NCBI GenBank assembly: GCA_009838515.1
Contig: VXRL01000040.1
Location: 243,749-307,748, forward strand
Direction: 5' to 3'
Source of the DNA: Terriglobia bacterium
Lineage (GTDB): Bacteria > Acidobacteriota > Terriglobia > Bryobacterales > UBA6623
DNA length: 64,000 nt
The notes beneath the pieces were generated by a model that saw only the letters and a list, made by a program, of their open reading frames with translations, did not search any database and was not told the origin of the DNA. The position numbers were made by a program, and so were the translations under genes. Positions 9,815 through 64,000 of the stretch are shown here, piece after piece; the first letter of the stretch is position 1; each line of letters opens with the position of its first letter.

Positions 9815-9857
9815 CGGGGACCCACAACGACTCTCGGCTGGGCGACACTGAATCAAG

Positions 9858-14160: not shown

Positions 14161-15708
14161 ATGCGAATCATTGTCGAACGCCTCCAACACTCCGGGCTGC
14201 TTCCGGTAGCGCTGATCTTCGGCACTCTCACCGCCGGAATCTTGATCGGCACGATCATCTCGGGATCGGTTGATGCCGCGCCTGAGACTGACGAGCCCGT
14301 CTCCGATGCCACGCCACTCAAAGTGCCTGCCGCCGAACGGGTTGAGAACCAGTTCTCCGAGCTGGCCCAGAAGGTGCGCCCTTCGGTCGTCAGCATCTAC
14401 ATTCCCGCCAGTCGCGCCGACGAAGAAGACGACGACTCGGGTCCGTTTAGTTCTCCAGAGGACATGTTTCGCAGGTTCTTCGGAATCCCAGAGGGGCCGA
14501 TGCCTCCGCCGCGCCGACGCGGCTCCGGCCAGGGCTCTGGAGTGATCGTCGACCCGAAGGGATACATCATCACGAACCACCATGTCGTGGCCGACGCAGA
14601 GCGCATCCGCGTGTCGTTCGTCGATGACGACGAGCGCTATGACGCGACCTTGATCGGGGCCGATGCAGAGACGGACCTGGCTGTCATCCATGTCAAGGGC
14701 AAGACTGGCCTGCAGGCGGCCAAGATCGGCAACTCCGATGCAGCCAACGTTGGCGACTGGGCCATCGCTATCGGATCGCCGTTCGGGTATAGCGAGACGG
14801 TCACGGTGGGAATCATCAGTGCCTTGTCCCGGGAGATGAACGCCGCCCGGGGAGGCCGGCCCTTCCAGAAGTTCTTGCAGACTGACGCGGCGATCAACCC
14901 AGGCAATAGCGGCGGACCTCTGCTCAACATCCGCGGCGAGGTCATCGGGATCAACACGGCGATTATCTCCCGTACCGGTGGCTACGACGGCATCGGATTT
15001 GCCCTCGCATCCAATATCGCCGTCAAGACCTATAACCAGATCGTTCGCTTCGGGCGCGTGTCGCGCGGCTCCATAGGCGTGGAGTTCAGCGGGGACCAGA
15101 GTCCTTCGCTGAGTCGGAGCTACGGTGCGGACGGCGGCGTGTTCGTCTTACGCACGGTCGAGGACGGCCCGGCGGAGCGGGCCGGCATGCGCGCCGAGGA
15201 CATCATCGTGTCAGTGGACGGTGAGAAGATCGACACGGGCGAGAAACTCATCGAAGTGGTCGCGGCAATCTCGGTAGGCGAAACCGTACCAATCGAGGTC
15301 GTTCGGGATGGCAAGACCCTGACGCTGGACGTCAAGATCCAAGATCGGGCCAAGCTGTATGCGGAGCAGAGCGAGGCCGAGGCCGACCCGTCGGAGGCCG
15401 AAGAGGCAGCCGTCCGATTCGGGCTGACGGTCCAAGAGATCGACCCCGAGCGGCGCGACCAGATGCGCCTGAGCCAGCGCGGCGGAGTCCTGATCACCCA
15501 GATCGAAGCGCATTCTTTCGCGGAGGACATCGGACTGCAGCAAAGGGATGTCGTGCTTGAAGTCAACCGCGAGCCGATCGATTCGATCCGAGACCTGCGC
15601 GATGTCCAGAGGAGCCTGAAGCCGGGCAGCGACGTCGCATTCAAGCTGCTGCGCTGGGACAGCCGCGCGTGGCGCACCGTGTACGAGGCGGGCCTGATAC
15701 CGAAGTAG
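14161..15708 (+). CDS. degP: Do/HtrA-family periplasmic serine protease
   Basis: 515 aa. An N-terminal hydrophobic anchor or signal (residues 13-35) directs it to the envelope. The trypsin-like domain carries the catalytic triad H141 (TNHHVVADA), D172 (AETDLAVI) and S250 (INPGNSGGPL). Two PDZ domains follow (about 295-390, and 410-510 with the late EVNREPIDSIRDL segment). The linker before the protease core has an acidic DEEDDDSG stretch and a PMPPPRRRGSGQGSG turn-rich segment. It degrades or chaperones misfolded envelope proteins. It is monocistronic and followed by a hairpin. Confidence 0.93.
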   Translation: MRIIVERLQHSGLLPVALIFGTLTAGILIGTIISGSVDAAPETDEPVSDATPLKVPAAERVENQFSELAQKVRPSVVSIYIPASRADEEDDDSGPFSSPEDMFRRFFGIPEGPMPPPRRRGSGQGSGVIVDPKGYIITNHHVVADAERIRVSFVDDDERYDATLIGADAETDLAVIHVKGKTGLQAAKIGNSDAANVGDWAIAIGSPFGYSETVTVGIISALSREMNAARGGRPFQKFLQTDAAINPGNSGGPLLNIRGEVIGINTAIISRTGGYDGIGFALASNIAVKTYNQIVRFGRVSRGSIGVEFSGDQSPSLSRSYGADGGVFVLRTVEDGPAERAGMRAEDIIVSVDGEKIDTGEKLIEVVAAISVGETVPIEVVRDGKTLTLDVKIQDRAKLYAEQSEAEADPSEAEEAAVRFGLTVQEIDPERRDQMRLSQRGGVLITQIEAHSFAEDIGLQQRDVVLEVNREPIDSIRDLRDVQRSLKPGSDVAFKLLRWDSRAWRTVYEAGLIPK

Positions 15709-15722
15709 TCTTCCAGACCGGC

Positions 15723-15750
15723 GCCTCCCGCATCCCACCGTGTGGGAGGC
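15723..15750 (+). terminator. Hairpin downstream of the HtrA gene
   Basis: GCCTCCCGCA and TGTGGGAGGC form a 10-bp stem with one G-T wobble and an 8-nt loop, starting 15 bp after the stop. There is no T-tract, so it could act as a processing or partial termination site rather than a strong intrinsic terminator. Confidence 0.45.
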
Positions 15751-15805
15751 ACCCTTCGGTACCGGCCGCGCCGATCCTGAGCGGCCTCTCGGCGGGGCCC
15801 GACTA

Positions 15806-15811
15806 TATAAT
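15806..15811 (+). promoter_or_regulatory. Consensus -10 upstream of the PSCyt1/PSD1 gene
   Basis: TATAAT ending 17 nt before the ATG at 15829. The leader would be about 10 nt and has no Shine-Dalgarno sequence. No clear -35 is seen. Confidence 0.5.
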
Positions 15812-15828
15812 GGCAGCGAGCCCCGCCT

Positions 15829-18800
15829 ATGCGCACAATCTCGATCTTGGGTTCTCTCGCTGCGTTCTTGGGCATCGCCAGCGGTGCCGACTTCGCCGCC
15901 GACATCGAGCCGATCTTTCGGGACAAGTGTTACGGCTGCCACGGGGAGCAGCAACAATTCGGCCAGCTGCGGCTCGATTCTCGCAACGTGGCTACCAGTG
16001 CCGGCCCGAGCGGGCAGCGGATCGTGCCGCACGATGCCCTGGCGAGCTCCGTCTACCAGCGCGTGGCCGGTCTGGGCGAGGGCAACCGAATGCCCATGGA
16101 CGGCCAGCTCAGCGACGCGGAGGTCGCGCTGATCAAGGCCTGGATCGAGGCCGGTGCGGTCTGGCCCCAGGGCCGGGAAGCGGACCCCTCACTGAACCAG
16201 CACTGGGCGTTCGTTCGGCCTGCGAGGCCGGAGCAGCCCGGGCTGAAGAACGGGCGGAGTGCCGCAAGTCCAATTGACAGCTTCGTGCTGGCCAGGCTGG
16301 AAGCTGAAGGCTTGGAACCGTCGCCTCCTGCGAGCAAGGAAACGCTGATCCGCCGCCTCAGCCTTGACCTGACCGGGCTGCCGCCCTCGCTCGAAGATAC
16401 CCGGCATTACCTGAACGACACGGCGCCGGGCGCCTATGGACGCTTGGTGGATCGCCTGCTCGCCTCGCCGCATTACGGCGAGCGCTGGGGCCGCATCTGG
16501 CTGGACGCTGCCCGCTATGCCGATTCTGACGGCTTTGAGAAGGACAAGCCGCGCCACGTCTGGTTCTATCGCGATTGGGTCGTTGACGCCCTCAACGCGG
16601 ACATGCCCTACGACCGCTTCGTGGTCGAGCAAGTCGCGGGCGACCTGCTGCCTGATGCGGCCCAACAGCAACGCGTCGCCACCGGCTTCCTGCGCAACTC
16701 GATGATCAACGCCGAGGGCGGGGCCAATCCAGAACAGTTCCGCATGGAGGCCATGTTTGACCGGATGGACGCCATCGGCAAGGCCGTGCTGGGCCTGACG
16801 GTGCAATGCGCGCAGTGCCACGACCACAAGTTCGACCCGATCAGCCAGGGCGACTACTACCGGATGTTCGCGTACATCAACAACTCGCACGAATCCACGC
16901 AGGCGGTCTACACCGCGGAGGAAGACAGGGTACGCAACGAGATCTTCGCGGAAATACGAGAGATCGAGGCCGGACTGCGCGAACTGAACCCGGACTGGCG
17001 CGAACGGATGGCCGAATGGGAACAGTCCGAGGCCGCCAGCCAGCCCCAATGGACCGTTCTGGACACGCACATCAAGCTGGGCAGCGGAGAGAAGTACGAA
17101 GTGCTGCCCGACAAGTCGATCCTGGCGGAAGGCTACGCGCCGACACGTAGCGTGGTCACGCCGGAGGGCCTACTAGAGCCGGGCACGGTTCGAGCTTTCC
17201 GACTCGAGCTGCTGACCGATCCGCGGCTGCCGCTCGGCGGTCCGGGCCGCTCGTTCCGCGGCACCGCCGCGTTGACAGAATTCGAAGTCGAGGTGGCGCC
17301 TGCGGACGATCCAGAGAAGTGGAAGGCGCTTAAGATCGCACGCGCCACCGCCGACGTCAACCCCGAGATGTCGATACTCGACTCCTTCCTGTTCCCGGAC
17401 AAGGACAACAAGCGCAGGATCTTGGGGGACGTCGGGTTCGCCATCGACGGCTTCGCGATGAGCGCGTGGAGCACCGATGCCGGGCCGGGCCGACGCAACA
17501 CGCCTCGCAAGGCTGTGTTCCAGCTCGCCGAAGCGCTCGAGATCGAGGAGCCCACGCTGGTCAAGTTCAAGCTTTCGATGAACCACGGCGGCTACAACTC
17601 GGACGACAACCAGTCGCTGAACTTGGGCAGGTACCGGCTTTCGCTCACGGCGGCGGAGGACGCGGAAGCCGATCCCTTGCCAAGACACGCACGGGAACTG
17701 ATCTCCCGCGGCGGCCAGCGCACGCCGGAGCAGGAAGCGGCGCTCTTCGGCTACTGGCGCACCACGGTCGCCGAGTGGGCGGAGGCCAATCGCAAGATAG
17801 AGGAGTTGTGGGGCGAATACCCAGAGGGAAGCTCCCAGCTCGTTCTGGACGAACGCCCGGCGCCGCGCATGACCAGCGTCCTCCAGCGCGGCGATTTCCT
17901 GCGCCCGACCGAGCAGGTGCGGGCCGGGGTTCCGGGATTCCTGCATCCGATGCCCGAGCGGGACGAGCTGCCGCAGCGCCTGGCGTTCGCCGAGTGGCTC
18001 GTCGACCGCGACTCGCCCACCACCGCGCGGGCCATCGTGAATCGCCTCTGGCAGGGGCATTTCGGCACGGGAATTGTCGAGACCTCCGAAGATCTTGGGC
18101 GGCAGGCAGCCGATCCGTCCCACCCGGAACTGCTGGACTGGCTGGCGGTGGAACTGATGGAGAACGACTGGAGCCTCAAGCACATGCACCGGCTGATCGT
18201 GTCTTCGGAGACCTACCGCCAATCATCCCGTGTCACGCCGAGGCTGCTAGGGCTGGACCCGAACAACCGCCTGCTGGCCCGCGGCGCGCGGTTCCGCGTC
18301 GACGGCGAGCTGGTCCGCGATATCGCCCTGGCCTCGAGCGGCTTGCTCACGGCACAGATCGGGGGCGCGCCCGTATATCCCCCGGCTCCCGAGTTCCTGT
18401 TCCAGCCGCCTGTCAGCTACGGCCCCAAGCGGTGGTACACGGCGAACGGAGCGCAGCGCTACCGCCGCTCACTGTACGCCTTCCGCTACCGCTCGTTGCC
18501 CTACCCCGTCCTCGACACCTTCGACACGCCCACCGGGAACTTCGCCTGCGTGAAGCGCGACCGCTCCAACACTCCGCTGCAGGCGCTGGTCACGCTCAAC
18601 GAGCCCGTCTTTATGGAAGCTGCCCGCGAGCTGGGCCGCAGGACGCTGAATGAGGGCGGGGCGGACGATCCGGGCCGCATCGACTACGCGTTCAAGCGCG
18701 TGCTGGCACGCGCGCCCAGCGATTCGGAGCGATCCGAACTGGCCGCCCTGCTGGGCAGCCAGCGGGAACGCCTGCAGTCCGGCGGACTTGACGCGGCCCG

Positions 18801-18924
18801 GCTGGCCTTCGGGGAACAATCGTCTGAGCCGGAGATGGCAGACGGCGAGACCGCCGAACTTGCGGCTTGGACGGCCGTTTCTCGCGTGCTGTTGAACTTG
18901 GACGAAGCGATTACGAGGGAATGA
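15829..18924 (+). CDS. PSCyt1-DUF1549-DUF1553 cytochrome c protein
   Basis: 1031 aa. A signal peptide (residues 1-20, ILGSLAAFLGIASGA) is followed by a c-type haem site CYGCH in a PSCyt1 domain (DIEPIFRDKCYGCHGEQQ). Next come DUF1549 (DLTGLPPSLEDTRHYLND; YGERWGRIWLDAARYADSDG) with a second potential haem-type motif CAQCHDHKFDPI, a long central carbohydrate-binding-like insert, and DUF1553 near the C-terminus (ARAIVNRLWQGHFGTGIVET; RDRSNTPLQALVTLNEP). Proteins of this architecture are exported and very common in Planctomycetes and Acidobacteriota; their reaction is not established, though links to polysaccharide breakdown are suggested. It is followed 3 bp later by its usual partner, DUF1501. 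Confidence 0.9.
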   Translation: MRTISILGSLAAFLGIASGADFAADIEPIFRDKCYGCHGEQQQFGQLRLDSRNVATSAGPSGQRIVPHDALASSVYQRVAGLGEGNRMPMDGQLSDAEVALIKAWIEAGAVWPQGREADPSLNQHWAFVRPARPEQPGLKNGRSAASPIDSFVLARLEAEGLEPSPPASKETLIRRLSLDLTGLPPSLEDTRHYLNDTAPGAYGRLVDRLLASPHYGERWGRIWLDAARYADSDGFEKDKPRHVWFYRDWVVDALNADMPYDRFVVEQVAGDLLPDAAQQQRVATGFLRNSMINAEGGANPEQFRMEAMFDRMDAIGKAVLGLTVQCAQCHDHKFDPISQGDYYRMFAYINNSHESTQAVYTAEEDRVRNEIFAEIREIEAGLRELNPDWRERMAEWEQSEAASQPQWTVLDTHIKLGSGEKYEVLPDKSILAEGYAPTRSVVTPEGLLEPGTVRAFRLELLTDPRLPLGGPGRSFRGTAALTEFEVEVAPADDPEKWKALKIARATADVNPEMSILDSFLFPDKDNKRRILGDVGFAIDGFAMSAWSTDAGPGRRNTPRKAVFQLAEALEIEEPTLVKFKLSMNHGGYNSDDNQSLNLGRYRLSLTAAEDAEADPLPRHARELISRGGQRTPEQEAALFGYWRTTVAEWAEANRKIEELWGEYPEGSSQLVLDERPAPRMTSVLQRGDFLRPTEQVRAGVPGFLHPMPERDELPQRLAFAEWLVDRDSPTTARAIVNRLWQGHFGTGIVETSEDLGRQAADPSHPELLDWLAVELMENDWSLKHMHRLIVSSETYRQSSRVTPRLLGLDPNNRLLARGARFRVDGELVRDIALASSGLLTAQIGGAPVYPPAPEFLFQPPVSYGPKRWYTANGAQRYRRSLYAFRYRSLPYPVLDTFDTPTGNFACVKRDRSNTPLQALVTLNEPVFMEAARELGRRTLNEGGADDPGRIDYAFKRVLARAPSDSERSELAALLGSQRERLQSGGLDAARLAFGEQSSEPEMADGETAELAAWTAVSRVLLNLDEAITRE

Positions 18925-18927
18925 CAG

Positions 18928-20325
18928 ATGTTGCGCTCGCATGCCACCACTAGCCCGCTGGCAAGGCGTTGGTTTCTGCAGCAGTGCGGCGTCGGGCTGG
19001 GAGCCGTCGCGCTGCGCGACATGCTGCAGGCAGCGGACCCGCTGGCACCGAAGCAGCCGCACCACGCCCCGACTGCCAAGAACGTGATCTTCCTGTTCAT
19101 GGGGGGCGGTCCGAGCCACCTCGAACTGTTCGACAACAAGCCGGAACTGGCCAAGCACGAGGGGACGCTGCCGCCGGCGAACCTGCTGGAAGGCTACCGC
19201 GCGGCCTTTATCGACCCCAATTCGACGCTGCTCGGGCCAAAATTCAAGTTCGCCCGGCATGGCGAGAGCGGGGCAGAGTTGTCCGAACTGATCCCGCATA
19301 CCGCCGCGATCGCCGACGACATCGCCATCGTGAAGTCCTTGGTGACCGATGCGTTCAACCACGCCCCGGCCCAAGTGATGATGAGCACCGGAACGCAGCA
19401 GTTCGGGCGGCCGTCGATGGGGGCGTGGACGCTTTACGGGCTGGGCAGCGAATCCCGCGACCTGCCGGGATTCGTGGTCTTAAGTTCAGGCCAGAAGGGC
19501 CCGAGCGGCGGCAATTCCAACTGGGGCAGCGGTTTCCTGCCGTCCATGTACCAAGGGGTGCAGTTCCGCACCAGCGGCGACCCGGTGCTGTATCTGTCCA
19601 ACCCGGCAGGCGTCGACCGCCGGCTCCAGCGCGACTCGCTGGACGCGCTCGGAAGCCTGAACAGCATGCGCTTGCGAGAAGTCGGCGACCCCGAGATCGA
19701 GACCCGGATCAGTTCCTTCGAGATGGCCTACCGCATGCAGGCGAGCACGCCGGAGCTGATGGACATTTCCCAAGAGCCCCAGCACGTGCTCGACATGTAC
19801 GGGGCCGAGCCGGGACGTCCATCATTCGCCAACAACTGCGTCCTGGCGCGCAGGCTAGTCGAACGGGGCGTACGCTTCGTGGAACTGTTCCACGAGTCGT
19901 GGGACCAGCACGGGGCCCTCATCTCTGGCCTGAAAAAGAACTGCCGGGACACCGACAAGGCCAGCGCCGCCTTGGTGAGCGACCTCAAGCAGCGCGGCTT
20001 GCTGGAAGATACGCTGGTGCTCTGGGGCGGCGAGTTCGGGCGCACACCGATGGTACAGGGCGGCACTGACGATGGCCGCGACCACCATCCCAACGCCTTC
20101 ACGATGTGGATGGCGGGGGGCGGCACCAGACCCGGCGTCACGATCGGCAAGAGCGACGAGCTGGGCTTTAACGTGGTCGAGGACAAGGTACACGTGCATG
20201 ACCTGCATGCCACCATCTTGCACCTGTTGGGATTCGACCACACACGGCTGACCTACCGCTTCCAAGGGCGCGACTTCCGTCTCACGGACGTGGCCGGCGA
20301 GGTAGCGCAGAAGCTGCTCGCGTAG
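18928..20325 (+). CDS. DUF1501 protein, Tat-exported (sulfatase-like fold)
   Basis: 465 aa, starting 3 bp after the stop of the PSCyt1/PSD1 gene. An N-terminal twin-arginine-like signal ([19 protein letters not shown]) is followed by the family block [20 protein letters not shown]. Further on are [13 protein letters not shown] and [20 protein letters not shown], which carry the metal-binding-like Asp/His residues of the alkaline phosphatase/sulfatase superfamily. It is the near-universal neighbour of DUF1549/DUF1553 proteins, so the two probably form one exported system of unknown substrate. Confidence 0.9.
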
Positions 20326-51379: not shown

Positions 51380-51628
51380 TTAGCTATAAATAGCCGTATT
51401 TTCAGTCACTTGCGTGCGTCTCGCCTTCGCAGATGAGCGGATCAGTTCGGGCCAAGTTGGATCACTCCGGGGCAGTTCGGAGCGTAGGGTGGGTCCCAAG
51501 GTGGGTCCCAACGACGGCTTCCCCTTAGTCTGTCTCGTGCCTGCCAGAGACTTCTGCAAGAATTGGAAGCTAGGTTCCGCAAATTGAACGGGCCGATTGT
51601 GGGAAACCGTTCTGGACTGCCTGTCCAC
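51380..51628 (-). pseudogene. Remnant resembling the C-terminal tail of a tyrosine integrase
   Basis: An 82-codon minus-strand frame ends in TKGKPSLGPTLGPTLRSE and further low-complexity residues. Tails of this kind, produced by repeated GGGACCCACC-type DNA, follow the catalytic domain of some tRNA-targeting integrases, and the position and orientation directly 3' of tRNA-Cys fit. No catalytic domain remains; the sequence is replaced by hsdM within about 80 bp. A diverged relative of this stretch occurs at 47840-47980. The integrase call is inference. Confidence 0.35.
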
Positions 51629-51704
51629 GTGTAGCCGTCCTGATCAGGATCTGCGTGGGTGTTGCCCAGATCTAACCGGGCCGCGGAGCTGTACAGGTAC
51701 GCTC

Positions 51705-54314
51705 GTGGACCACTCTCAACTCTCCTGGATCGCTCATTTCATCTGGGGAATCGCGGACGACGTGCTCCGGGATCTCTATGTCCGCGGCAAGTACCGCGAC
51801 GTGATCCTACCCATGACTGTGCTTCGGCGGCTCGATTCGATCTTGGAACCGCGCAAGTCGGCCGTTCTAGAACTGAAGGCACAACTCGACGCCGCTCAGA
51901 TCCACCATCAGGACGAGGCTCTGCGGCAAGCGGCCGGACAGGCGTTCTACAACACCTCTAGGTTCACTCTGCGGGACCTCAAAGCGCGGGCCAGCCAGCA
52001 GCAGCTTAAATCTGATTTCGAAGCGTATCTCGACGGATTCTCCCCGAACGTCCAAGACATCTTGGAGAAGTTCGAATTTCGGAACCAGATTCCTCGCCTC
52101 TCAAAGGCCGACGCCCTAGGGACACTCATAGAGCGGTTCCTTTCGTCCGACGTGAATCTGAGCCCCAATGCGGTCCTTTTCGGCGACGGATCGATAAAGC
52201 ACCCGGGTCTAGACAATCACGGGATGGGAACGGTCTTTGAGGAACTTGTCCGTCGCTTCAACGAAGAGAACAATGAAGAGGCAGGAGAACACTGGACCCC
52301 TCGCGATGCTGTAAGGCTGATGGCGAGGCTCGTGTTCTTACCTGTCGCCGATCAGATCCAATCCGGAACCTACCTGATGTACGACGGCGCCTGCGGTACC
52401 GGTGGAATGCTGACTGTGGCCGAGGAAACCTTTGCCGAGATCGCAGCCCAACGAGGAAAGCAGGTTGCAACCCATCTCTATGGACAGGAGATCAATGCAG
52501 AGACCTACGCCATCGCCAAGGCAGATCTGCTCATCAAGGGAGAAGGGGGAGCGGCAGACAACATCGTTGGAGGACCGGAGTACTCAACGCTTTCGAACGA
52601 CGCGTTTCCGAATCGCGAGTTCGACTTCATGCTCTCGAATCCACCCTACGGCAAGAGCTGGAAGAACGACTTAGAGCGGATGGGCGGGAAGTCTGAGATT
52701 CACGACCCGAGATTCCTGATCGACCACAGTGGCGATCCAGAATACTCGCTCGTCACCCGTTCAAGTGACGGCCAGATGCTGTTCCTGGCGAACATGGCCT
52801 CCAAGATGAAGCACGGCACGGCGCTGGGGAGCCGCATTGCAGAGGTACACAACGGCTCGTCGCTGTTTACCGGCGACGCCGGCCAGGGCGAGAGCAACAT
52901 CCGCCGGTGGATCATCGAGAACGACTGGCTCGAAGCCATCGTCGCGCTGCCGCTCAACATGTTCTACAACACGGGAATCGCCACCTACGTGTGGGTACTG
53001 GGCAACCGCAAGGCGGAGCAACGCAAGGGCAAAGTGCAGCTTATCGACGCTACCCCGTGGTTCAAACCGTTGCGGAAGAATCTCGGCAAGAAGAACTGCG
53101 AGTTGTCCGAGGAAGACATCGCGCGCATCAGCGATACGTTCCTCGCGTTTGAGGAAAGTGAGCAGTCGAAGATCTTCCCGAACGAAGCCTTCGGCTATTG
53201 GAAGCTGACTGTAGAACGGCCCCTTCGCCTTGCAGTGGACCTATCTGCAGAACGGCGTGACCAGTTCCGAGCGATCTGCAAGGAGGCCAAAGAGCTTCCG
53301 ATGGCTGGTCTCGCCGACAGGCTAGCAGCGAAGCTCGGGCCGGGGCCTCATCGCGACCTTAACGCGATCATGGACTCGCTTACGGAAGATGCCATGCAGC
53401 GCGGGGTCAAGCTGACAGCGAAGCGCAAGAAGCTGTTGCGCGACTCGCTAGCAGAACGTAGCGAGGAAGCCGAACCGGTAGTTGCAAGGAAGCACAAACT
53501 CGGGAATGTGGAACCGGATCCGCTGCAGGGTCTCTGCGAGGTCACCCTGGGCAGCAAGCGCTGGGTCGTCGAGTACGAGCCGGACCCCGCGCTGCGTGAC
53601 ACGGAGCAGGTTCCTTTGCTGGAAGAAGGCGGAGTCGAAGCGTTCCTGAAACGCGAGGTGCTGCCCTACGCGGAGGATGCCTGGTACGCACCAGCGAGCG
53701 TCAAGATCGGCTACGAGATCAGCTTTACTCGGTACTTTTACAAGCCGGAGCCCCTGAGGACGCTGGCGGATATCCAGTCGGAGATCGTCGCCGTAGAGCA
53801 AGAGGCGGAGGGGTTGCTGGGCAGGTTGATGAGAGGCGAATCACTCGCCGAGGAGAGCAAGCTGCGAGTCTACGCCGACACGTCGGTGATCGGCGGTTGC
53901 GAGGACGAGGAGTTCCGGGAGCCCTCTCGGCGGCTGATCGAGAAGTGCGCACGGGGTGAGATCACGTTGGTCGTGTCAGCGATTACACTACAGGAACTGG
54001 AGGATGCCCCCCAAGCCGTGCGTGAAGTGCTCCGGGCGATCGGGACCGAGGATCTCGAGGTGATTGCCATTACAGAAGAGGTCAGGGAACTTGCGGATCG
54101 TTACATCGAGAGCGGTGCCCTCAGCACGGCGATGCGCGCAGACGCCCAGCACATCGCCGCCGCAACCGTGGCGGATGTAGACGTACTGGCGAGTTGGAAC
54201 TTCAGACATATGGTGAATCTGACGCGAATCCGACAGTACAGCGAGGTGAACCGGCGCACGGGGTACCCCGGGGTGGATATCCGCAGTCCCATGGAGCTTG
54301 AAAATGAAGAGTGA
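51705..54314 (+). CDS. hsdM: Type I R-M methyltransferase HsdM fused to a PIN-domain toxin
   Basis: 869 aa from a GTG at 51705 (VDHSQLSWIAHFIWGIADD, the normal HsdM start). Residues 1 to about 708 are a complete N6-adenine methyltransferase subunit: helical HsdM_N, SAM motif DGACGTGG at 227-234, catalytic NPPY at 312-315 and the usual HsdM end (LADIQSEIVAVEQEAEGLL). Without a stop the frame continues through a short linker into residues 720-869, a PIN ribonuclease domain (LRVYADTSVIGG with D725; LQELED with E764; MRADAQHIAAATVADVDVLA; SWNFRHMVNL; NRRTGYPGVDIRSPMEL). PIN proteins of this exact kind normally stand alone beside a small partner, which is present here at the overlapping next gene. 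Confidence 0.9.
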   Translation: MDHSQLSWIAHFIWGIADDVLRDLYVRGKYRDVILPMTVLRRLDSILEPRKSAVLELKAQLDAAQIHHQDEALRQAAGQAFYNTSRFTLRDLKARASQQQLKSDFEAYLDGFSPNVQDILEKFEFRNQIPRLSKADALGTLIERFLSSDVNLSPNAVLFGDGSIKHPGLDNHGMGTVFEELVRRFNEENNEEAGEHWTPRDAVRLMARLVFLPVADQIQSGTYLMYDGACGTGGMLTVAEETFAEIAAQRGKQVATHLYGQEINAETYAIAKADLLIKGEGGAADNIVGGPEYSTLSNDAFPNREFDFMLSNPPYGKSWKNDLERMGGKSEIHDPRFLIDHSGDPEYSLVTRSSDGQMLFLANMASKMKHGTALGSRIAEVHNGSSLFTGDAGQGESNIRRWIIENDWLEAIVALPLNMFYNTGIATYVWVLGNRKAEQRKGKVQLIDATPWFKPLRKNLGKKNCELSEEDIARISDTFLAFEESEQSKIFPNEAFGYWKLTVERPLRLAVDLSAERRDQFRAICKEAKELPMAGLADRLAAKLGPGPHRDLNAIMDSLTEDAMQRGVKLTAKRKKLLRDSLAERSEEAEPVVARKHKLGNVEPDPLQGLCEVTLGSKRWVVEYEPDPALRDTEQVPLLEEGGVEAFLKREVLPYAEDAWYAPASVKIGYEISFTRYFYKPEPLRTLADIQSEIVAVEQEAEGLLGRLMRGESLAEESKLRVYADTSVIGGCEDEEFREPSRRLIEKCARGEITLVVSAITLQELEDAPQAVREVLRAIGTEDLEVIAITEEVRELADRYIESGALSTAMRADAQHIAAATVADVDVLASWNFRHMVNLTRIRQYSEVNRRTGYPGVDIRSPMELENEE

Positions 54315-54522: not shown

Positions 54523-54709
54523 CGCATGGTGGTCGGATTCCGACGTCGCACTTGGAAGGGATCAGAGAATGACGGGCAAGACATCCCGAACCTCGTAGAC
54601 ATCTTGGGGGATGCGGCGAGACGTGCGAGAGGCGGTGGAGTGTGAAGGTAAAGAAGCAATGGAGCGAGCGATAGTGTGCCACCTGCATTGGAAGCCGTAG
54701 GGATTGACG

Positions 54710-56158
54710 ATGGCGAAACTAGCGAAGATCGTGAGCGACCTTCAGCCGTACCCGGCGTACAAGCCGTCCGGAGTGGAGTGGCTGGGGGATGTGCCGACGC
54801 ATTGGGAGGTAGAACCGAATCGAGCCCTATTTGAGGAGGTGAACGAGCGGGAGCGTCCTGACGAGCCCCTGCTTTCGGTGACGATCACTCAGGGAGTAAT
54901 CCGGCAAACTGAACTCTTGGCCGACAGCTCCAAGAAGGACAGTTCTAAGCTGGACAAGTCGTCGTACAAGCTCGTACGGTTTGGCGATATCGCATACAAC
55001 AAGATGCGAGCTTGGCAAGGGGCCATTGGGGTTTCCTGGGACCAAGGGATTGTAAGTCCCGCATATGTGGTGCAACGGCCACGCCACAGGACCAACTCAC
55101 AGTACATGCACCATCTATTCCGGACTCCAGCCTTCGCGAAGGAGGCAGAACGATGGTCATACGGCATTGCATCCGACATGTGGAGTCTGCGACCTGAGCA
55201 GTTCAAGGGGATATATGCGTGTCTTCCACCTGTCCCCGAGCAAGCCGCCATCGCTCGCTATCTCGACTACGCCGACCGGCGCATCCAACGCTGCATCCGT
55301 GCCAAGCAGAAGCTGATCACACTGCTGGAGGAACAGAAGCAGGCTATCGTCCACCAGGCAATCTCCGGCCAAATCGACGTTCGAGTCAGCAAGCCCTACC
55401 CGTCCTACAAGGACTCCGGCGTGGAGTGGCTGGGAGGAGTGCCGGAGCATTGGGAAGTTATCCGCTTGGGGAGACTCATTACCTTGACAACGGGTTTCCC
55501 GTTCAAGAGTGAGGGATTCACGCAATCGGAAGAAGACGTTCGGCTTCTTCGCGGGATTAACGTTGCACTTGGGAGACTACGCTGGAAGGAGACTGTTAGA
55601 TGGCCTGCAGACGACACAGAGAACTTTGCCGAGTATCTGCTTGAGCCGGGCGATATCGTGCTGGGCATGGATCGCCCGATCATCCAAGATGGCATACGTG
55701 TCGCGCTTGTGGACCTGTCAGATGTTCCGTCACTGCTTCTTCAACGCGTCGCACGGATTCGACCTGGCAATGAACTGAACCGGGACTTCGCGTTCTTGCT
55801 GTTGAGTGGTAAGGGTTTCTCTGACTACTTGGCCCCGATCTTCACGGGAGTCAGTGTTCCCCATCTGAGTCCTGAACAAATCAGGGGGTATAGGCTTGCA
55901 CTCCCTAGCTTGGCCGAACAGGAGCAAATCCTAGAATGGCTGGGTCCCCGTATTGGTGCCATTCGGTCTGGGATGGACTGCGCTATACGCGAGATCTTGC
56001 TACTCCGTGAGTACCGTACTCGTCTCACTGCAGACGTGGTTACGGGGAAGTTTGACGTTCGCGAGGCAGCGGCACGCCTAGCGGACGAATTCGATGAGTC
56101 AGACGCTTCGGGCATGATCTGTGCGAAAACTACCGACAAACTCGACACTTTGGCCTAG
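54710..56158 (+). CDS. hsdS: Type I restriction-modification specificity subunit HsdS
   Basis: 482 aa. Two target-recognition domains, each introduced by the same conserved repeat: YPAYKPSGVEWLGDVPTHWE near residue 15 and YPSYKDSGVEWLGGVPEHWE near residue 230. The long helical spacer between them (EQAAIARYLDYADRRIQRC, LITLLEEQKQAIVHQAISG) is repeated near the C-terminus (LLREYRTRLTADVVTGKFDV). Each domain reads one half of a bipartite DNA target. It contributes specificity to both the HsdM-PIN and HsdR subunits. Base composition is visibly lower in GC than the host genes left of the tRNAs. Confidence 0.93.
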   Translation: MAKLAKIVSDLQPYPAYKPSGVEWLGDVPTHWEVEPNRALFEEVNERERPDEPLLSVTITQGVIRQTELLADSSKKDSSKLDKSSYKLVRFGDIAYNKMRAWQGAIGVSWDQGIVSPAYVVQRPRHRTNSQYMHHLFRTPAFAKEAERWSYGIASDMWSLRPEQFKGIYACLPPVPEQAAIARYLDYADRRIQRCIRAKQKLITLLEEQKQAIVHQAISGQIDVRVSKPYPSYKDSGVEWLGGVPEHWEVIRLGRLITLTTGFPFKSEGFTQSEEDVRLLRGINVALGRLRWKETVRWPADDTENFAEYLLEPGDIVLGMDRPIIQDGIRVALVDLSDVPSLLLQRVARIRPGNELNRDFAFLLLSGKGFSDYLAPIFTGVSVPHLSPEQIRGYRLALPSLAEQEQILEWLGPRIGAIRSGMDCAIREILLLREYRTRLTADVVTGKFDVREAAARLADEFDESDASGMICAKTTDKLDTLA

Positions 56159-56169
56159 AAGAGTGAGCT

Positions 56170-56867
56170 ATGACCATTGATCGGCCGACCGAATACTTGG
56201 TTTGTCTTGTGCGCGAGCTTCGAAGGCTCGCCCGGGATACGGCGTGGGTCAAGTTCAAAGTCAACGTTCGCAGGCTAGAGGAGATCGGTGAGTACATTTC
56301 AGCGCTCGCAAACTCGGCCGCTTTGGTTGGCAAGGTATTTGCCTATATGGTGTGGGGGATTTCTGATCGAGACCATGCGGTCGTCGGCACAGGCTTCGAC
56401 CCGAACACCGCAAGGTTCTTCGACTGCTGAAACCAAGACTCCACTTTTGCTTCTTCCAAGTTTCCATTGAGCGGCATTCGGTGATCGTGCTCGAAATCGA
56501 GCGCGCGTTTCGCCAACCAGTGCAATTTCGCGGACAAGAGTACATCCGTGTGAGCTCCTACAAGAAGAAGCTGAAGGACTTCCCACAGAGTGCGCGGGCG
56601 TTGAGGCACGTTTTCGATCAAACGCCCGTTGAGAACGGCATTGCAGCCGAGCGAGTGCCTGACGATGCACTGCTTCGGCTGCTCGACTATCCTGCGTATC
56701 TTGATTTGCTCAGGAACCGGCTTCCAGGGAATCGGAACGAAATTCTAGATGCGCTCAACAGCGATGCTTGGATCGAGCGTAGCGACGCGGGTGGCTGGAA
56801 CGTGACAAGCTCACTTCCATACGTTGAAGACCATGGTTCAGGTTGCTTGAACGGTGGAGAGGGTTGA
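56170..56867 (+). pseudogene. Broken AlbA_2 (Schlafen-type) transcriptional regulator
   Basis: The first frame (ATG 56170, 11 bp after hsdS) reads an AlbA_2 domain: EEIGEYISALANSAALVGK and MVWGISDRDHAVVGTGF, then stops at 56430. The continuing family sequence is found in the +2 frame from 56421 (RLLKPRLHFCFFQVSI, VIVLEIERAFRQPVQFRGQE, SYKKKLKDFPQSARALRHVF, FDQTPVENGIAAERVPDDAL). A short deletion or frameshift therefore joins the halves. The expected C-terminal winged-helix part is missing: similarity ends near GGWNVTS at about 56810. Genes of this family often sit inside type I loci. Confidence 0.75.
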
Positions 56868-56870
56868 CGC

Positions 56871-59800
56871 TCAACACCTCAGGAGCTTAATGCGCTCTTG
56901 GAGGGCAAGGGCGCCGGGTGTGTTCTTGGCAGCCAGCGCCGCCGCGACCTCGACCAGCGCCTGCCTGGCCGCGGCATCTTTGGACAGCGCATGGAGGTCC
57001 GACCCCAACGCCGCAGTCACGAGTTCGACCAGCGCGTTTCCCTTGCTCTCGCGATACCAATGACTGGACGGGTTGTTCGCCTTCAGCACCGCAGCGATCC
57101 ACCGAAGGCCGTCCAAACGAAGCGGACCACCGAAGGCCGTGGTGAGAAAGCGCGAGAAGCGGGTGACACACTCTTCGTCGCGCCCTAGATGCGACTGCGC
57201 CCACCGCTCGTAGACATCCTTCATCCGGAGAGCGCCTCCCGGCGGGAGCCGCGCGAGGGAGTCTTCGTTCCCAAACCCGAGTAGGTCGCAGATTAGCCGC
57301 TCGCCATAAAACCATAGGCCCGGTTTCGACCAATCGGCCGCCAGTCCGTACTCCGCGAGCCCTCGCCAGACGCGCTCAAAAGCCGCGGTGTCATCACCGG
57401 CCCCGAGACGCATATAGAGGCCGCGGATGAAGTCCTCCAGCGCATAATGCGCCGCCGGCCCATGAACGAGAACCGGCTCCCAAACAGCCTGATCCTCATC
57501 TTCAGGCGCGGCGAGCGATAAGGCAGCGATCTTCGGGAGGATATTCTGGGTCGGCTGGTCGTACTCGCCGTTCCCGTCCGTCTCGGCCCGCGCCTTCGCG
57601 CGCGAAGCGTCGTAGTCCCAGATGCGGAGAGCAAGGCGCGTGTCCGACGACCGGTCGCCGGTTCCAGCGCCGTGCATGAGCCAACCGAACACCACTTCGA
57701 GCACATGGCCGTCAAGCGAGGCCCCCGGCCGGCGCTGGGGCTTTCCGCGCCAGGTCCGCTTGCCGGATGTGTAGAGACGCATCTTCCTGTAGAACTCCAG
57801 CCGCCCGCAGCCGGCCGCGACGCGCTTGAAGTCGAGACTGTCGAGGTTTGCGTCCTTATTCCGTAACGGGAAACGCCGCAGCCTCGCGAGCCAGCCGCTC
57901 CACGCACGTTCAGCGACTTCATCGTCTCCGTAATCGGGCGTGAGGAGGATGAGGCCGGACCACAGGACCCCAGCCTGCAGAAGCCGCCACCACACGGACC
58001 CCAACTGGTCCCGGCTGGCGTAGGCAATCCCGACAACCGCCTCCAAGGCGCACGAGTCACCGCTCGTCAGGAGGCGAAGGACATCGGCCTCCCACTCAGG
58101 TCCGGCGTCACCGGCCAGCCACAGGTGCATCACGGCATGCGCTGCGAACTTCAGTTCGTTGCGCATGCTCCTCATGCGCTGGTTGCGAATCTCGCCACTC
58201 GTCCATGGAATCCCTGAGACGGCTGAGCGGACAACTGCAAGCGAGTGGCCTTGCGCCTCAGGGGCTTTCGCCAACCACGTCCCACCCAGCACGACCAACG
58301 TTGCCGCCGCTGCGAGCCTACACGTGGATCTCCCAGCCTCATCTTCCTCCGTATTGGCCTCGCAGGTCTTGATTAGGTCGTACAGATACACCGCCTCTTC
58401 GTCTGTGAGCGTCTGTCCACGTTGAAGCCTCTGCTCGCAGCGGTTCGGCATGTGAAGGTACGTGAGCGGCTGCGCCTCCTCGCTCTGCAGCGACTGGACC
58501 TCAGAGCTCAGGTCGTCGGGGCAGACGAAACTCCGGACTTCTGTGCCTGTCTCCTGGTCCGTCGTCGGCCGATAATTCGCGCTGTCGAGAGCGGCGAAGA
58601 GCAGCTTGAACGCAAGCGCTTTCTTCGGGTCTTCAGGTAGCGTCCAAGTCGATACAAGCGCCTTGAGGTGCCGCGCAAGGTCGTGGTTGGCCAACAGAAG
58701 CTCGACCACCACATCCAAGAGCCGCCGCTGACGATGCGATGCGAGGGTCCAATTGCGGGCGAAGTCGAGCATCGCTTGGCCGCCCTGAAGCCAGTTCCAT
58801 TCGACGAAGTTGTTGGCAATCTGCTCTACACGAACGCTGTCCCAGTAGAACAGGTTCGGAAACGTCAGCAGAGGAGCGAGTGCTCCCGTGAGCAGCGACG
58901 GCCGGTACTTGGACACATTGAGGAGCACGCTGACTAGCGCCGCCGAGTTGCCCTCGTGCAACAGCCGATCGACGATGGCGGTTATGTCTTCGCCGGCATC
59001 GAGTTGGAACGTCAGCCATCGCTCGAGCGCGTCGAGCGCGCAGAAAAGGTTCCCGTTGCGCAGTGAGTTGGTCTGCGGCCAGCCGAACACCTGCTGCCAG
59101 CCCGGGAACTCTTTCTGCAATCCGCCTTCGAACTGCAGCGTGATCCCCAGTGGTGCACGCTCTCGGCCCTTCATGGCCTCGGCGACCCATCGTTCCGTCG
59201 AGAAGTTCACGAGCGCGATGAGCGCATCTGAGGCGACATCAGGCGCGACTTGCAGGAACGTGAAGAACGGGCTCTTCCAGAAGGCGGTGGGGTAAGCGTC
59301 TTTCGGGTAGTCGAGGCCTAGATCTACATCAAAACGCTCAGCCCTGTCCTCCCGTTCTGGCTGGTCGTCGATGATCAGCGCAAGCAGAATCTCCGCTGCC
59401 AGCTCTGGCCTTGCACGCATCAGCGGCTGGAGGCCGTTCTCCTTGAAGCATGCGGTCCGGAAGTCCATGTCGACCTCGCCGCGTGCGCCGAGGGGCCAGG
59501 GCGGCAGGCGCTCGCGGAACCGGCCAATGGAGGGGGGCATCCGCCGCAGCCTCTCCTGGCGCTCCTTGTATTCCGGGTCCGTCTCCAAGCGCTTGGCGTG
59601 CGCCAATGCCTTCTCCCGCCTGACCGCGGCTATCCGCCGCTCCACATCCTCGTCGACCTTCCGTCTTCCCGCCAGTTCCAGCGCCCAGTTGCCAACCTCT
59701 TCCGGGAGGTCTGCAGCGCCAGCCAGCGGCGCTGTGTACAGCGAGTACTCCCGCGTCATGTACGTGACGCCAAGTCCCTTCTGGACCTGCACGGTCCGGG

Positions 59801-62126
59801 CCATTGCCAGCGCAATCTCGGCCATCTCGCGCCGGAAGGGCATCAGCGCTCCCTTACTCAGTTCGCGCGGCGCCTTCGTGAGCCAGGTTTCGATGACCCT
59901 TGCGAGGGCAAACGAGACAAGCCCGCGCAGATGCTCACGCTGCGCAACGAGGAAACGGAGGAGCGGCGGCCACCGCCCGAAGACAATTGAGCGGAATCGC
60001 GCCTCAATATAGAGGCCGACTGCCGAGTCCGTCGCCAACGGGCCGCTGATCGGAACGGTCGCGATGTGATGGAAGCGCAGGAGCAGTCGATTGAAGGCCT
60101 TGGCGTTGTTTGCGAGCAACAGCTCGCGCCGGTCAGTCAGGAATCGTTCGGCCTCCGGGTCGAGACAGAGCGCATCGAGCAGGATGTCCCCTGCTAGCTC
60201 GTTCTTCGCGGCGGTGGCCGCATCGAAGGCAATGTCCCAAGCTGTTCCGACTTCGGCGGACTGCCGCAGCAGGAACTGCCCCAACATCCGCAGCGCGTTC
60301 GTCCAAAGCGGATTATCGGCAAGTGCCGTCCACTGCAGCGTGTTCGTCCAATCCTGTTTCAGGAATTGGAAGCGCGCCCAGTCCGCAGCGAGGTCGTGTT
60401 CGAACTCAACCCGGTTCGTCCATTCGTTCAGCCGCAGCGGAAGTTCGGACGGGCGCTGCGTGAATGTCGCAGTATCAGCCGGGTCCAGATCGGTCAGGGC
60501 GAAGCTGCGCTCGAAAGATGCTTCTCGCTGCGCCAGGCGCATCATGAGCGCCTGCACGTCAGCGCGGTCCTTCGTCCAATACTTCCACAACCTGTCCGCG
60601 ATGGCGGTGTGTGACGCGAGGCCGCTGGCATTCGAACCCAGCGCCGCGCCGGCCATGATGACCCACCCCAAAGTCCGGAGATTCGTTAGCGCCGTGACGG
60701 TGTCGTCATGGCCGGCCAGCCAGCCTAATGTCGGCGAATGCAAGAGCGCCAGCTTCACGTCCTCGCCGGTGACTCGTTCCAGCTCGACGAATGCGGCCCT
60801 TCGTCCGCCCACCATCGTCTCTTCGCCTTCGACCCAACCTTGCGTCTGCGTCACGACGACGACCCGCCATGTTGCCTCGGGCTGAGCTACAGCCGGGAGG
60901 ATGCCCTGGAGCAGCTCACGGATGACGTGGAACTCGGTTGCTTCAATCCGTTCGGCCGAGTCTATTACGAGTACGTTCCTCGGTTTGACTGTCGCATTGA
61001 GGACCCGCGACAGTTCGTACCGGAGCGGCAGGTTTCTCTGCCCCGCTGCGCTCAACGCTGTTTTCAGATCTTCGGAACCGAACCAAACCTGGTTCCACGA
61101 AGGGAACTCCACATCCAACACCGACTTGACCAAGGCCGACTTGCCGCAACCTGACTCGCCGAAGACCACGGTCACCTCGTTGTCCGCGACGGCGGACCGG
61201 AAATAGGCCTTCTTCGCGGTTCGCGGGACGGCATAGCCTGAAGGCAGTTCGGTCTCTATCCGGGCCTTTTGGTCCGAGGTGATCCTGGAAAGTGTCTCCC
61301 AATCGCCCGCGAAATCCGGATGCTGGCGAAGCCCGAACTGAACCCGCAGATGGGACCAGAGGTCCGGAACCGTGACGGTGCCCTTCCGCAGCCGCACGTC
61401 GGCGGCCACACTGACGAGCTCCTTCCAAAGTCTTTCTGCCTCGCTCGCGTCCCCAGACTCCAGCAGGCGGCGGCATTGGGCGATCGACTGATTCTCGGTC
61501 TCGGAGTGGGCGAACTGGAGGTCCACCGAAACGACATGGAGCCGACGGATTAGCTCGATGGTTTCCTCGTCACTCGCATCCCCGCCCGGCTCCTGGACGC
61601 TGCGAAGGACGCGCGACTGCTTCGGGTTGCTCCGAATGCGGCTCATCGCCAGAGCGACATCGGAGCCGCTGCATGCGTTCTTGACCTCGCGCCAGGTCGC
61701 TTCGAACGTCGGGAGCGTCCCGAGTGTAACCAGTGCCAACCCATCCGAGGCGCGGTTAAACGGCCCTTGCGGGTCACGCCACTGCTCCCAAGCCTGCGTC
61801 ACGAAGCCGGACGGGAGACCGGAGGCAGTGACTTGTTGATTGCCCTTTGCTGAGATGGCGAGCCGCCGTGGCTCTCCTTTGGCTTCGCCGGTCAGCAGCA
61901 GGTCGTCGAACCGCCAGCCAAGGGTCGAGACCTGCGCTTGGAGCTTCGCCGCGACACCTCCGACGCCGGGCATTTGCTCGCCGGAAAGCGCCTTCACCAG
62001 CTGCCACGCGGCTATCAGGTCTTCGAACTCGAAACCGGCACCGCTTGTCGACCGCAGCGTCGCAGGAACGCGTTGCCCGCCGCCGGATGATGCGTTCGGC
62101 TTCGATGTTTTCTTGGGTGAAGCCAA
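56871..62126 (-). CDS. Giant STAND-like NTPase with nuclease-like N-terminus (putative defence protein)
   Basis: 1751 aa from a TTG at 62126, with GGAG 8 nt upstream and TATTCT (62151-62156) as a possible -10. Residues 25-110 resemble a PD-(D/E)xK nuclease fold of the kind found at the N-terminus of antiviral proteins: GAGFEFEDLIAAWQLV (E33, E35), WRFDDLLL (D74, D75) and LAISAKGN (S92-x-K94, where Glu or Gln is usual). Residues 316-430 form a P-loop NTPase: VVFGESGCGKSALVK (Walker A, K329) and NVLVIDSAERIE (Walker B, D389). The remaining 1300 residues are helical, Trp- and Leu-rich, without named motifs, as in the sensor part of STAND (Avs-like) proteins. It lies antisense inside a type I R-M locus. 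Confidence 0.7.
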   Translation of the reverse strand: MASPKKTSKPNASSGGGQRVPATLRSTSGAGFEFEDLIAAWQLVKALSGEQMPGVGGVAAKLQAQVSTLGWRFDDLLLTGEAKGEPRRLAISAKGNQQVTASGLPSGFVTQAWEQWRDPQGPFNRASDGLALVTLGTLPTFEATWREVKNACSGSDVALAMSRIRSNPKQSRVLRSVQEPGGDASDEETIELIRRLHVVSVDLQFAHSETENQSIAQCRRLLESGDASEAERLWKELVSVAADVRLRKGTVTVPDLWSHLRVQFGLRQHPDFAGDWETLSRITSDQKARIETELPSGYAVPRTAKKAYFRSAVADNEVTVVFGESGCGKSALVKSVLDVEFPSWNQVWFGSEDLKTALSAAGQRNLPLRYELSRVLNATVKPRNVLVIDSAERIEATEFHVIRELLQGILPAVAQPEATWRVVVVTQTQGWVEGEETMVGGRRAAFVELERVTGEDVKLALLHSPTLGWLAGHDDTVTALTNLRTLGWVIMAGAALGSNASGLASHTAIADRLWKYWTKDRADVQALMMRLAQREASFERSFALTDLDPADTATFTQRPSELPLRLNEWTNRVEFEHDLAADWARFQFLKQDWTNTLQWTALADNPLWTNALRMLGQFLLRQSAEVGTAWDIAFDAATAAKNELAGDILLDALCLDPEAERFLTDRRELLLANNAKAFNRLLLRFHHIATVPISGPLATDSAVGLYIEARFRSIVFGRWPPLLRFLVAQREHLRGLVSFALARVIETWLTKAPRELSKGALMPFRREMAEIALAMARTVQVQKGLGVTYMTREYSLYTAPLAGAADLPEEVGNWALELAGRRKVDEDVERRIAAVRREKALAHAKRLETDPEYKERQERLRRMPPSIGRFRERLPPWPLGARGEVDMDFRTACFKENGLQPLMRARPELAAEILLALIIDDQPEREDRAERFDVDLGLDYPKDAYPTAFWKSPFFTFLQVAPDVASDALIALVNFSTERWVAEAMKGRERAPLGITLQFEGGLQKEFPGWQQVFGWPQTNSLRNGNLFCALDALERWLTFQLDAGEDITAIVDRLLHEGNSAALVSVLLNVSKYRPSLLTGALAPLLTFPNLFYWDSVRVEQIANNFVEWNWLQGGQAMLDFARNWTLASHRQRRLLDVVVELLLANHDLARHLKALVSTWTLPEDPKKALAFKLLFAALDSANYRPTTDQETGTEVRSFVCPDDLSSEVQSLQSEEAQPLTYLHMPNRCEQRLQRGQTLTDEEAVYLYDLIKTCEANTEEDEAGRSTCRLAAAATLVVLGGTWLAKAPEAQGHSLAVVRSAVSGIPWTSGEIRNQRMRSMRNELKFAAHAVMHLWLAGDAGPEWEADVLRLLTSGDSCALEAVVGIAYASRDQLGSVWWRLLQAGVLWSGLILLTPDYGDDEVAERAWSGWLARLRRFPLRNKDANLDSLDFKRVAAGCGRLEFYRKMRLYTSGKRTWRGKPQRRPGASLDGHVLEVVFGWLMHGAGTGDRSSDTRLALRIWDYDASRAKARAETDGNGEYDQPTQNILPKIAALSLAAPEDEDQAVWEPVLVHGPAAHYALEDFIRGLYMRLGAGDDTAAFERVWRGLAEYGLAADWSKPGLWFYGERLICDLLGFGNEDSLARLPPGGALRMKDVYERWAQSHLGRDEECVTRFSRFLTTAFGGPLRLDGLRWIAAVLKANNPSSHWYRESKGNALVELVTAALGSDLHALSKDAAARQALVEVAAALAAKNTPGALALQERIKLLRC

Positions 62127-63111: not shown

Positions 63112-64000
63112 ATGAGCACTGACACCAGCGAGCGTGGTCTGGAACGGAGGATTTGCAAAGCACTGACCGGCGGACCCTGCGATACCGCGCCGGTTCAACA
63201 AGATTCGCATGCCCAAGGCCCCGCCCCTTCAAATGGGAAGGGTTGGATCTGTGGCCGCCGGAGTGACTACGACCGCCAGCACACCGTGGACCTGACGCAA
63301 CTCCTTGCCTTTTGCGTCGAGACCCAACCGCATGCCTACGAGGGTCTCCAACTCGGAACCGACAACCCTAGGCGCCGCAAGTTCCTGGCACGCCTACAGA
63401 GCGAAGTAGGCAGGCGCGGCATCATCGACGTGCTCCGCAAGGGAATCAAGGACGGGCCGTATCACATCGAACTCTTCTACGAAACGCCATCTCCCGGCAA
63501 CGCCATTGCCATTGAACGCTACTCCCAGAACCGATTCTCGGTCACCCGCCAACTCCGCTACAGCCTCGACCAAACCCAGCGCTCACTGGACCTGTGCCTG
63601 TTCATCAACGGTCTGCCTATCGCCACGTTTGAGCTAAAGAACAGCCTTACCAAGCAGACAGCCGCAGATGCGGTAGAGCAGTACAAGCGTGATCGCGACC
63701 CCCGCGAAAAACTGTTCCAATTTGGCCGCTGCGTAGCGCACTTCGCCGTAGACGACCACGAGGTGCAGTTCTGCACGCAACTCAAGGGCAAGGATTCGTG
63801 GTTCTTGCCGTTCAATCAGGGTTGGCAAGCAGGCGCGGGGAACCCGCCGAATCCGGAAGGCCTCAAGACGGACTATCTGTGGACACGGATCCTTACCCGC
63901 GACGGGCTCACTGAGATCCTCGAGAACTATGCCCAAGTCGTGGAAACCAAGAACAGCAAGACCGGCCGGAAGAGCAAGACGCAGATCTGGCCCCGCTACC
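63112..64000 (+). CDS. hsdR: Type I restriction endonuclease subunit HsdR (3' end outside window)
   Basis: 296 codons are visible, starting MSTDTSERGLERRI. The N-terminal PD-(D/E)xK nuclease domain is recognisable: HTVDLTQLLAF, a central SLDLCLFINGLPIATFELKN with the catalytic ELK, and the following QTAADAVEQYKRDRDPREKL and FQFGRCVAHFAVDDHEV blocks typical of HsdR. The helicase motifs lie beyond the window. It is separated from hsdS by nearly 7 kb, so the R gene has its own promoter. This completes a three-subunit type I system. Confidence 0.9.
   Translation, partial: MSTDTSERGLERRICKALTGGPCDTAPVQQDSHAQGPAPSNGKGWICGRRSDYDRQHTVDLTQLLAFCVETQPHAYEGLQLGTDNPRRRKFLARLQSEVGRRGIIDVLRKGIKDGPYHIELFYETPSPGNAIAIERYSQNRFSVTRQLRYSLDQTQRSLDLCLFINGLPIATFELKNSLTKQTAADAVEQYKRDRDPREKLFQFGRCVAHFAVDDHEVQFCTQLKGKDSWFLPFNQGWQAGAGNPPNPEGLKTDYLWTRILTRDGLTEILENYAQVVETKNSKTGRKSKTQIWPRY

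Follow-up and report, generated by a model that had tools for sequence, protein, structure and literature searches.

The 1751-residue protein encoded between hsdS and hsdR in the window (the whole 64,000-nucleotide stretch of DNA that was analyzed) is probably a single-gene antiviral STAND sensor nuclease that belongs to the wider Avs4 superfamily and responds to a phage protein. This model is supported by its conserved motifs, its colinearity with EcAvs4, a D-D/K triad in its N-terminal head, its mobility as one gene, and its location in a variable island slot. The long helical C-terminus would bind a conserved protein that the phage produces in the course of infection, and the ATP-loaded NTPase modules, by analogy to Avs4, would oligomerize. 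The N-terminal PD-(D/E)xK-type heads would then come together and cut DNA, and the cell would stop or die before phage release.

The features of the window are collected in Table 1. The TTG start of the giant gene corresponds to the same residue as the ATG starts of its relatives. Codon differences between the window gene and three of these relatives amounted to 36-56% at third positions and 13-16% at second positions; because they pile up at third positions, the frame appears to be under purifying selection. Walker A, Walker B, and HD motifs (K329, D389, and H577-D578) follow one another in order and are conserved in diverse homologues, and we take H577-D578, which was located by alignment, to be the equivalent of the MHD motif of STAND/NLR proteins. 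By these ordered motifs the protein fits the STAND NTPase superfamily. The wider family consists of proteins of 1604-1794 residues that are 15-30% identical and occur in several phyla; 15 of them retain the P-loop glycines, K329, and D578 without exception, and conservation reaches at least 90% not only at H577 but also at W583 and at residues near 946-954 and 1033-1035. The first-pass annotation had proposed a STAND-type NTPase and had placed K329, D389, D74/D75, and S92-A93-K94 exactly where we found them, and the conserved P-loop, Walker B, and HD motifs bear this out. One homologue, on a Geminocystis plasmid (L022 4921-9735, 1604 residues), is without a nuclease head, having ∼54 residues before the aligned region. 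Another distant homologue is followed 10 bases downstream, on the same strand, by a Peptidase_U49 (Lit-type) gene (L040 13266-14267), which might form a sensor-protease pair with it.

Table 1. Features of the window, with their positions, strands, and supporting observations.
Feature	Position	Strand	Observation
Giant head-NTPase-sensor protein gene	56871..62126	-	one open frame, 1751 aa, TTG start at 62126
Putative PD-(D/E)xK nuclease head, residues ~25-135	61722..62054	-	invariant D74, D75, K94, G31, F123; near-invariant D128
D74-D75, predicted metal-binding acids	61902..61907	-	invariant, 24 homologues
S92-A93-K94 half-motif (S-x-K)	61845..61853	-	K94 invariant
Helical region, residues 136-300, linking head and NTPase	61227..61721	-	W234 conserved
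STAND NTPase module, residues ~301-600	60327..61226	-	Avs4 profiles; alignment to EcAvs4 8DGF
Walker A GESGCGKS, residues 323-330, with K329	61137..61160	-	G323, G326, G328, K329 invariant, 15 diverse homologues
Walker B LVIDSAER, residues 386-393, with D389	60948..60971	-	conserved in homologues
HD motif H577-D578 (F-x-HD-x3-DW)	60393..60398	-	D578 invariant, H577 at least 90%, 15 diverse homologues
Long C-terminal sensor region, residues 601-1751	56874..60326	-	superfamily profile reaches 8DGF C-terminus
Best-conserved sensor block, residues ~934-1109	58800..59327	-	matches Avs4 profile and 8DGF 760-1088
HsdM with C-terminal PIN-like extension	51597..54314	+	PIN below curated cut-off
HsdS	54704..56158	+	
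Remnant AlbA_2-type ATP-binding protein gene, two frames	56170..56867	+	homology ends near 56810
HsdR start, 1009 aa, continues beyond window end	63112..64000	+	

Avs4 is the sole named Avs type that the window protein matches. The protein scored 36.4 bits (E = 9e-10) against NCBIfam NF041815, short of the curated whole-protein cut-off of 1500 bits, and the PADLOC Avs4 profile matched it at E = 2.4e-6. A profile of six members (A4: the window protein, two close relatives, and three middle relatives, with the members closest to Avs4 left out) aligned to the EcAvs4 chain 8DGF in two colinear stretches at E = 2.9e-17. The 15-member profile A3, which includes members near Avs4, reached the same chain from the NTPase through the C-terminus at E = 8e-126, and hhalign comparison of 14 members with three Avs4 proteins gave a probability of 99.6 (E = 1.2e-23). 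A profile of the nine closest sequences alone found no match in the PDB, and the connection to Avs4 therefore depends on intermediates. Through these intermediates, profile comparison places the protein securely as a homologue of Avs4, and it is predicted to possess an Avs4-type STAND NTPase with a colinear C-terminal sensor. Both the Avs relationship proposed earlier and the order of effector, NTPase, and large C-terminus are thereby upheld, the former by profile homology to EcAvs4 and the latter by colinearity of the NTPase and C-terminus with it. When 16 heads were compared by hhalign to three Avs4 heads the probability was 0.1, and the Mrr-like nuclease of canonical Avs4 was not matched. 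The suggestion that the protein falls outside the named Avs types thus holds for its head and for the missed cut-off, but not for its NTPase and C-terminus, which are homologous and colinear to those of EcAvs4. We considered the name Avs4 for the window protein and rejected it, as both the curated cut-off and the head fail. Portal protein is the trigger of Avs4, and by analogy it could also trigger the window protein, which we regard as possible but short of probable. Phage terminase and portal are the triggers of Avs1-4, with nuclease activation and cell death as the outcome (PMC12931631).

The relationship was further resolved in a midpoint-rooted tree of 874 core columns (IQ-TREE, 1000 ultrafast bootstraps, small sampling). 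Three Avs4 proteins and four proteins with a window-type head (L026, L046, L047, and L048) formed one group with a support of 100. This group joined L023, L024, L044, and L050, which also carry the window-type head, again at 100, and the window clade lay apart with L040-L042, L051, L022, and L057. At 732 bits, L046 fits the Avs4 profile from position 148 onward to its end, yet it has a window-type head. Canonical Avs4 therefore appears, from its core sequence, to nest among proteins with window-type heads; the simplest reading is that its Mrr-like head was acquired later or has diverged past recognition, and we infer this order of events and go no further because of the midpoint root and the small sampling. 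We give somewhat less than even weight to the broader proposal that the window protein belongs to an Avs lineage of its own with a distinct S-x-K variant of the PD-(D/E)xK head, which may sense a phage protein so far not counted among the Avs triggers, and that Avs4 is a derived, head-replaced branch.

In the head, D74, D75, and K94 were invariant in 16/16 and then in 24/24 homologues, at identities down to ∼20%, and most other head columns vary. This invariance, along with the shared start of the 64-75% identical relatives, confirmed by sequence comparison that the observed motifs exceed chance. At position 92, the half of the family that includes the window protein has Ser (16/16 members) and the other half has the common Gln (8/8 members); the serine before the lysine, formerly read as the mark of a separate family, is instead fixed in one half of this one. 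First-helix acids are present in both halves, as Asp36 in all 16 members of the Ser half and as Glu one position earlier in the other. The layout of a helix A acid, strand 2 acids, and a strand 3 x-K is that of a predicted PD-(D/E)xK site, and the active-site residues follow this pattern with a variant middle residue. An AlphaFold model of residues 1-305 (12 sequences) had pLDDT values below 50 for residues 1-97 and of ∼64-94 for residues 101-200; after K94, residues 106-117 form a helix and residues 130-134 a strand, in an order compatible with the PD-(D/E)xK fold. Foldseek with this low-confidence head model returned LmuA nucleases (Lamassu) first, in several chains and entries, at E ≥ 0.14, which is not significant, and a single-sequence structure model of residues 1-700 had a pLDDT of 41. 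Residues 1-300 matched no Pfam family, and PADLOC offered for them only a partial match to its candidate PDC-M54A. PF14130 (Cap4/LmuA) gave no match to the 16 heads at E ≤ 1 and an hhalign probability of 0.3; the head profile showed nothing above column-shuffled controls against LmuA/Cap4 or the Avs4 head, and eight LmuA-type proteins, scored directly with the HMM along with the Cap4-STAND protein adjacent to the L006 homologue, likewise did not match. Against the PDB, the head profile found 7oc3 at E = 0.074, below significance. The affinity to Cap4/LmuA is a lead only. Of the nuclease-like head proposed in the first-pass annotation, the motif and the invariance of D74, D75, and K94 stand, whereas profile comparison with two nuclease families gave no match. 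From its residue pattern, the head is very probably a nuclease.

Alternatively, the head could be a catalytically dead nuclease fold that serves as an adaptor, like the inactive endonuclease domains associated with NACHT proteins, with another protein doing the killing. Position 92 is without the usual acid or Gln in the window protein, inactive NACHT-associated nuclease domains are a recognized Pfam kind, and one of them (PF22722) is found in a neighbor protein. A dead domain would not, however, be expected to retain D74, D75, and K94 in 24 homologues, and the first-helix acids are kept as well. The acid before the lysine is, moreover, lost or migrated in active enzymes, including Cfr10I and NgoMIV (PMC1189080, PMC6344858). 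We consider a dead adaptor improbable and retain the active nuclease as the preferred reading.

The restriction island and defense context claimed for the gene were corroborated, as type I restriction-modification (R-M) genes (HsdM, HsdS, and HsdR) flank it. The gene has the strand opposite to hsdM/S/R and lies downstream of tRNA-Gly and tRNA-Cys genes. At its 3' side is the AlbA_2-type remnant, whose listed plasmid matches reach no further than residue 110 of its second piece, ∼60 bases before the giant gene. A congener (G379, L080) shares these R-M genes (its HsdR is 93% identical across the 296 residues that were compared), but its hsdS-hsdR slot holds a gene (7177-11223) for a 1348-residue P-loop protein with GEPGSGKT and YLDGLDEV motifs and no Pfam hit, a candidate defense gene. 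In a second congener (G157, L082) only ∼550 bases separate hsdS and hsdR, with no large gene between them. In L080, moreover, hsdM is preceded by a GmrSD-type gene and hsdR is followed by a phage-type integrase, a layout that points to an integrative island whose cargo slot is variable. The PIN-like stretch of the window HsdM (residues 758-864, E = 9.7e-4) is below the Pfam cut-off, and the HsdM of L080 is equally extended in length, though without a match to PIN at E ≤ 0.01; it would be unusual for a type I methylase to have a toxin-like RNase fused to it.

Its position between hsdS and hsdR could also mean that the gene functions within the adjoining R-M system, for example as a regulator or guard of HsdR. 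In keeping with such a role, the homologue in a separate type I array (L006: HsdR, HsdM, HsdS, Mrr, the homologue, and a Cap4-nSTAND protein) overlaps the preceding mrr gene. This role is very unlikely given the opposite strand in the window, the congeners that have near-identical R-M genes without the giant gene, and the absence, in the DNA compared, of any window-type R-M relative beside the other full-length close relatives. An independent single-gene sensor in a variable slot remains the preferred reading. In L006 the protein directly behind the homologue (15377-19198, 1273 residues) combines a Cap4 nuclease with nSTAND_NTPase5. The L041 homologue is near a DNA methylase gene.

A single scan across 84,980 species genomes found ten relatives with identities of 64-75%, mostly full length, in Myxococcaceae, Levilinea, and Rubrivivax metagenome-assembled genomes (MAGs), for which contamination could affect the host assignment, and in Aeromonas, Rhizobium, Pseudomonas, Aromatoleum, Roseibium, Stenotrophomonas, and Variovorax. 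The Roseibium sequence is a fragment, and that of Variovorax (L010 380-1840) is decayed, in that numerous stops and frame breaks precede residue 490; a congener of the source organism has a fragment of the gene (83%). Two plasmids, of Paraburkholderia and Aromatoleum EbN1, carry copies annotated "hypothetical protein", the latter split by IS1182. A viral contig (L056) carries a copy along with a VapE-type replication gene, and when distant members were used to search viral contigs, L057 was the sole addition. At the nucleotide level, the window resembles the relatives over a stretch whose two limits lie a few bases at most from the CDS ends, so the unit of transfer appears to be the single gene. 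As homology between loci stops at these limits, no partner gene is conserved between them and none seems to be needed, which also counts against a dead adaptor head. Examination of direct and inverted repeats around the window gene revealed no convincing insertion ends. Several relatives adjoin transposases or ordinary genes rather than defense genes, which weighs against the antiviral model. On Aromatoleum plasmid 2, a gene close to the homologue (L021 22889-27790) encodes a 1633-residue protein without a Pfam hit.

STAND NTPases include transcription regulators, and copies of the gene reside on plasmids, so the protein could have another job, either regulation or a response to plasmids or conjugation instead of phage. 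We hold this to be hardly probable, since the homology to Avs4 along the NTPase and C-terminus is specific, and since a head resembling a nuclease, dissemination as a cassette, and the defense neighborhoods also speak against it. The antiviral sensor nuclease is thus preferred here as well.

These results widen the Avs4 group, for most of the sampled relatives have a head that is not Mrr-like, and the curated profiles miss them. Head exchange on a constant sensor becomes directly testable, and the division into S-x-K and Q-x-K halves, both of which keep D74, D75, and K94 fixed, offers a clean natural experiment with the active site of a probable nuclease. The hsdS-hsdR slot, which swaps large P-loop genes among congeners, is a place for finding more defense genes.

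Three known systems invite comparison. PDC-M54A, a PADLOC candidate of 1621-1657 residues that to our knowledge has no tested function, is matched by relatives over the head and NTPase (L050, E = 1.5e-16; L040, E = 1.1e-13), which lowers the novelty of the family. Residues 1-300 of the window protein gave a partial match to it (E = 8.8e-5) and the whole protein none at E ≤ 1; to judge by its PADLOC name, PDC-M54A would be a multi-gene candidate, whereas the window clade moves as a single gene. The LmuA/Cap4 dsDNA endonuclease of Lamassu and CBASS (PF14130) shares the layout of an acid helix, a D-D/E-D strand, and a Q/S-x-K strand, and LmuA chains are the best Foldseek matches of the window head, at E ≥ 0.14; the profile similarity, however, is not significant, and the window protein is without LmuB/LmuC partners. 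Avs4 (EcAvs4, 8DGF, NF041815; AVAST type 4) is 1587 residues long, compared to 1751 for the window protein, whose head is ∼100 residues longer than that of Avs4 and not alignable to it and which lies outside the Avs4 branch of the core tree. The two nevertheless share the order of effector, STAND NTPase, and long sensor, the P-loop, Walker B, and HD motif, and colinear homology from the NTPase to the C-terminus.
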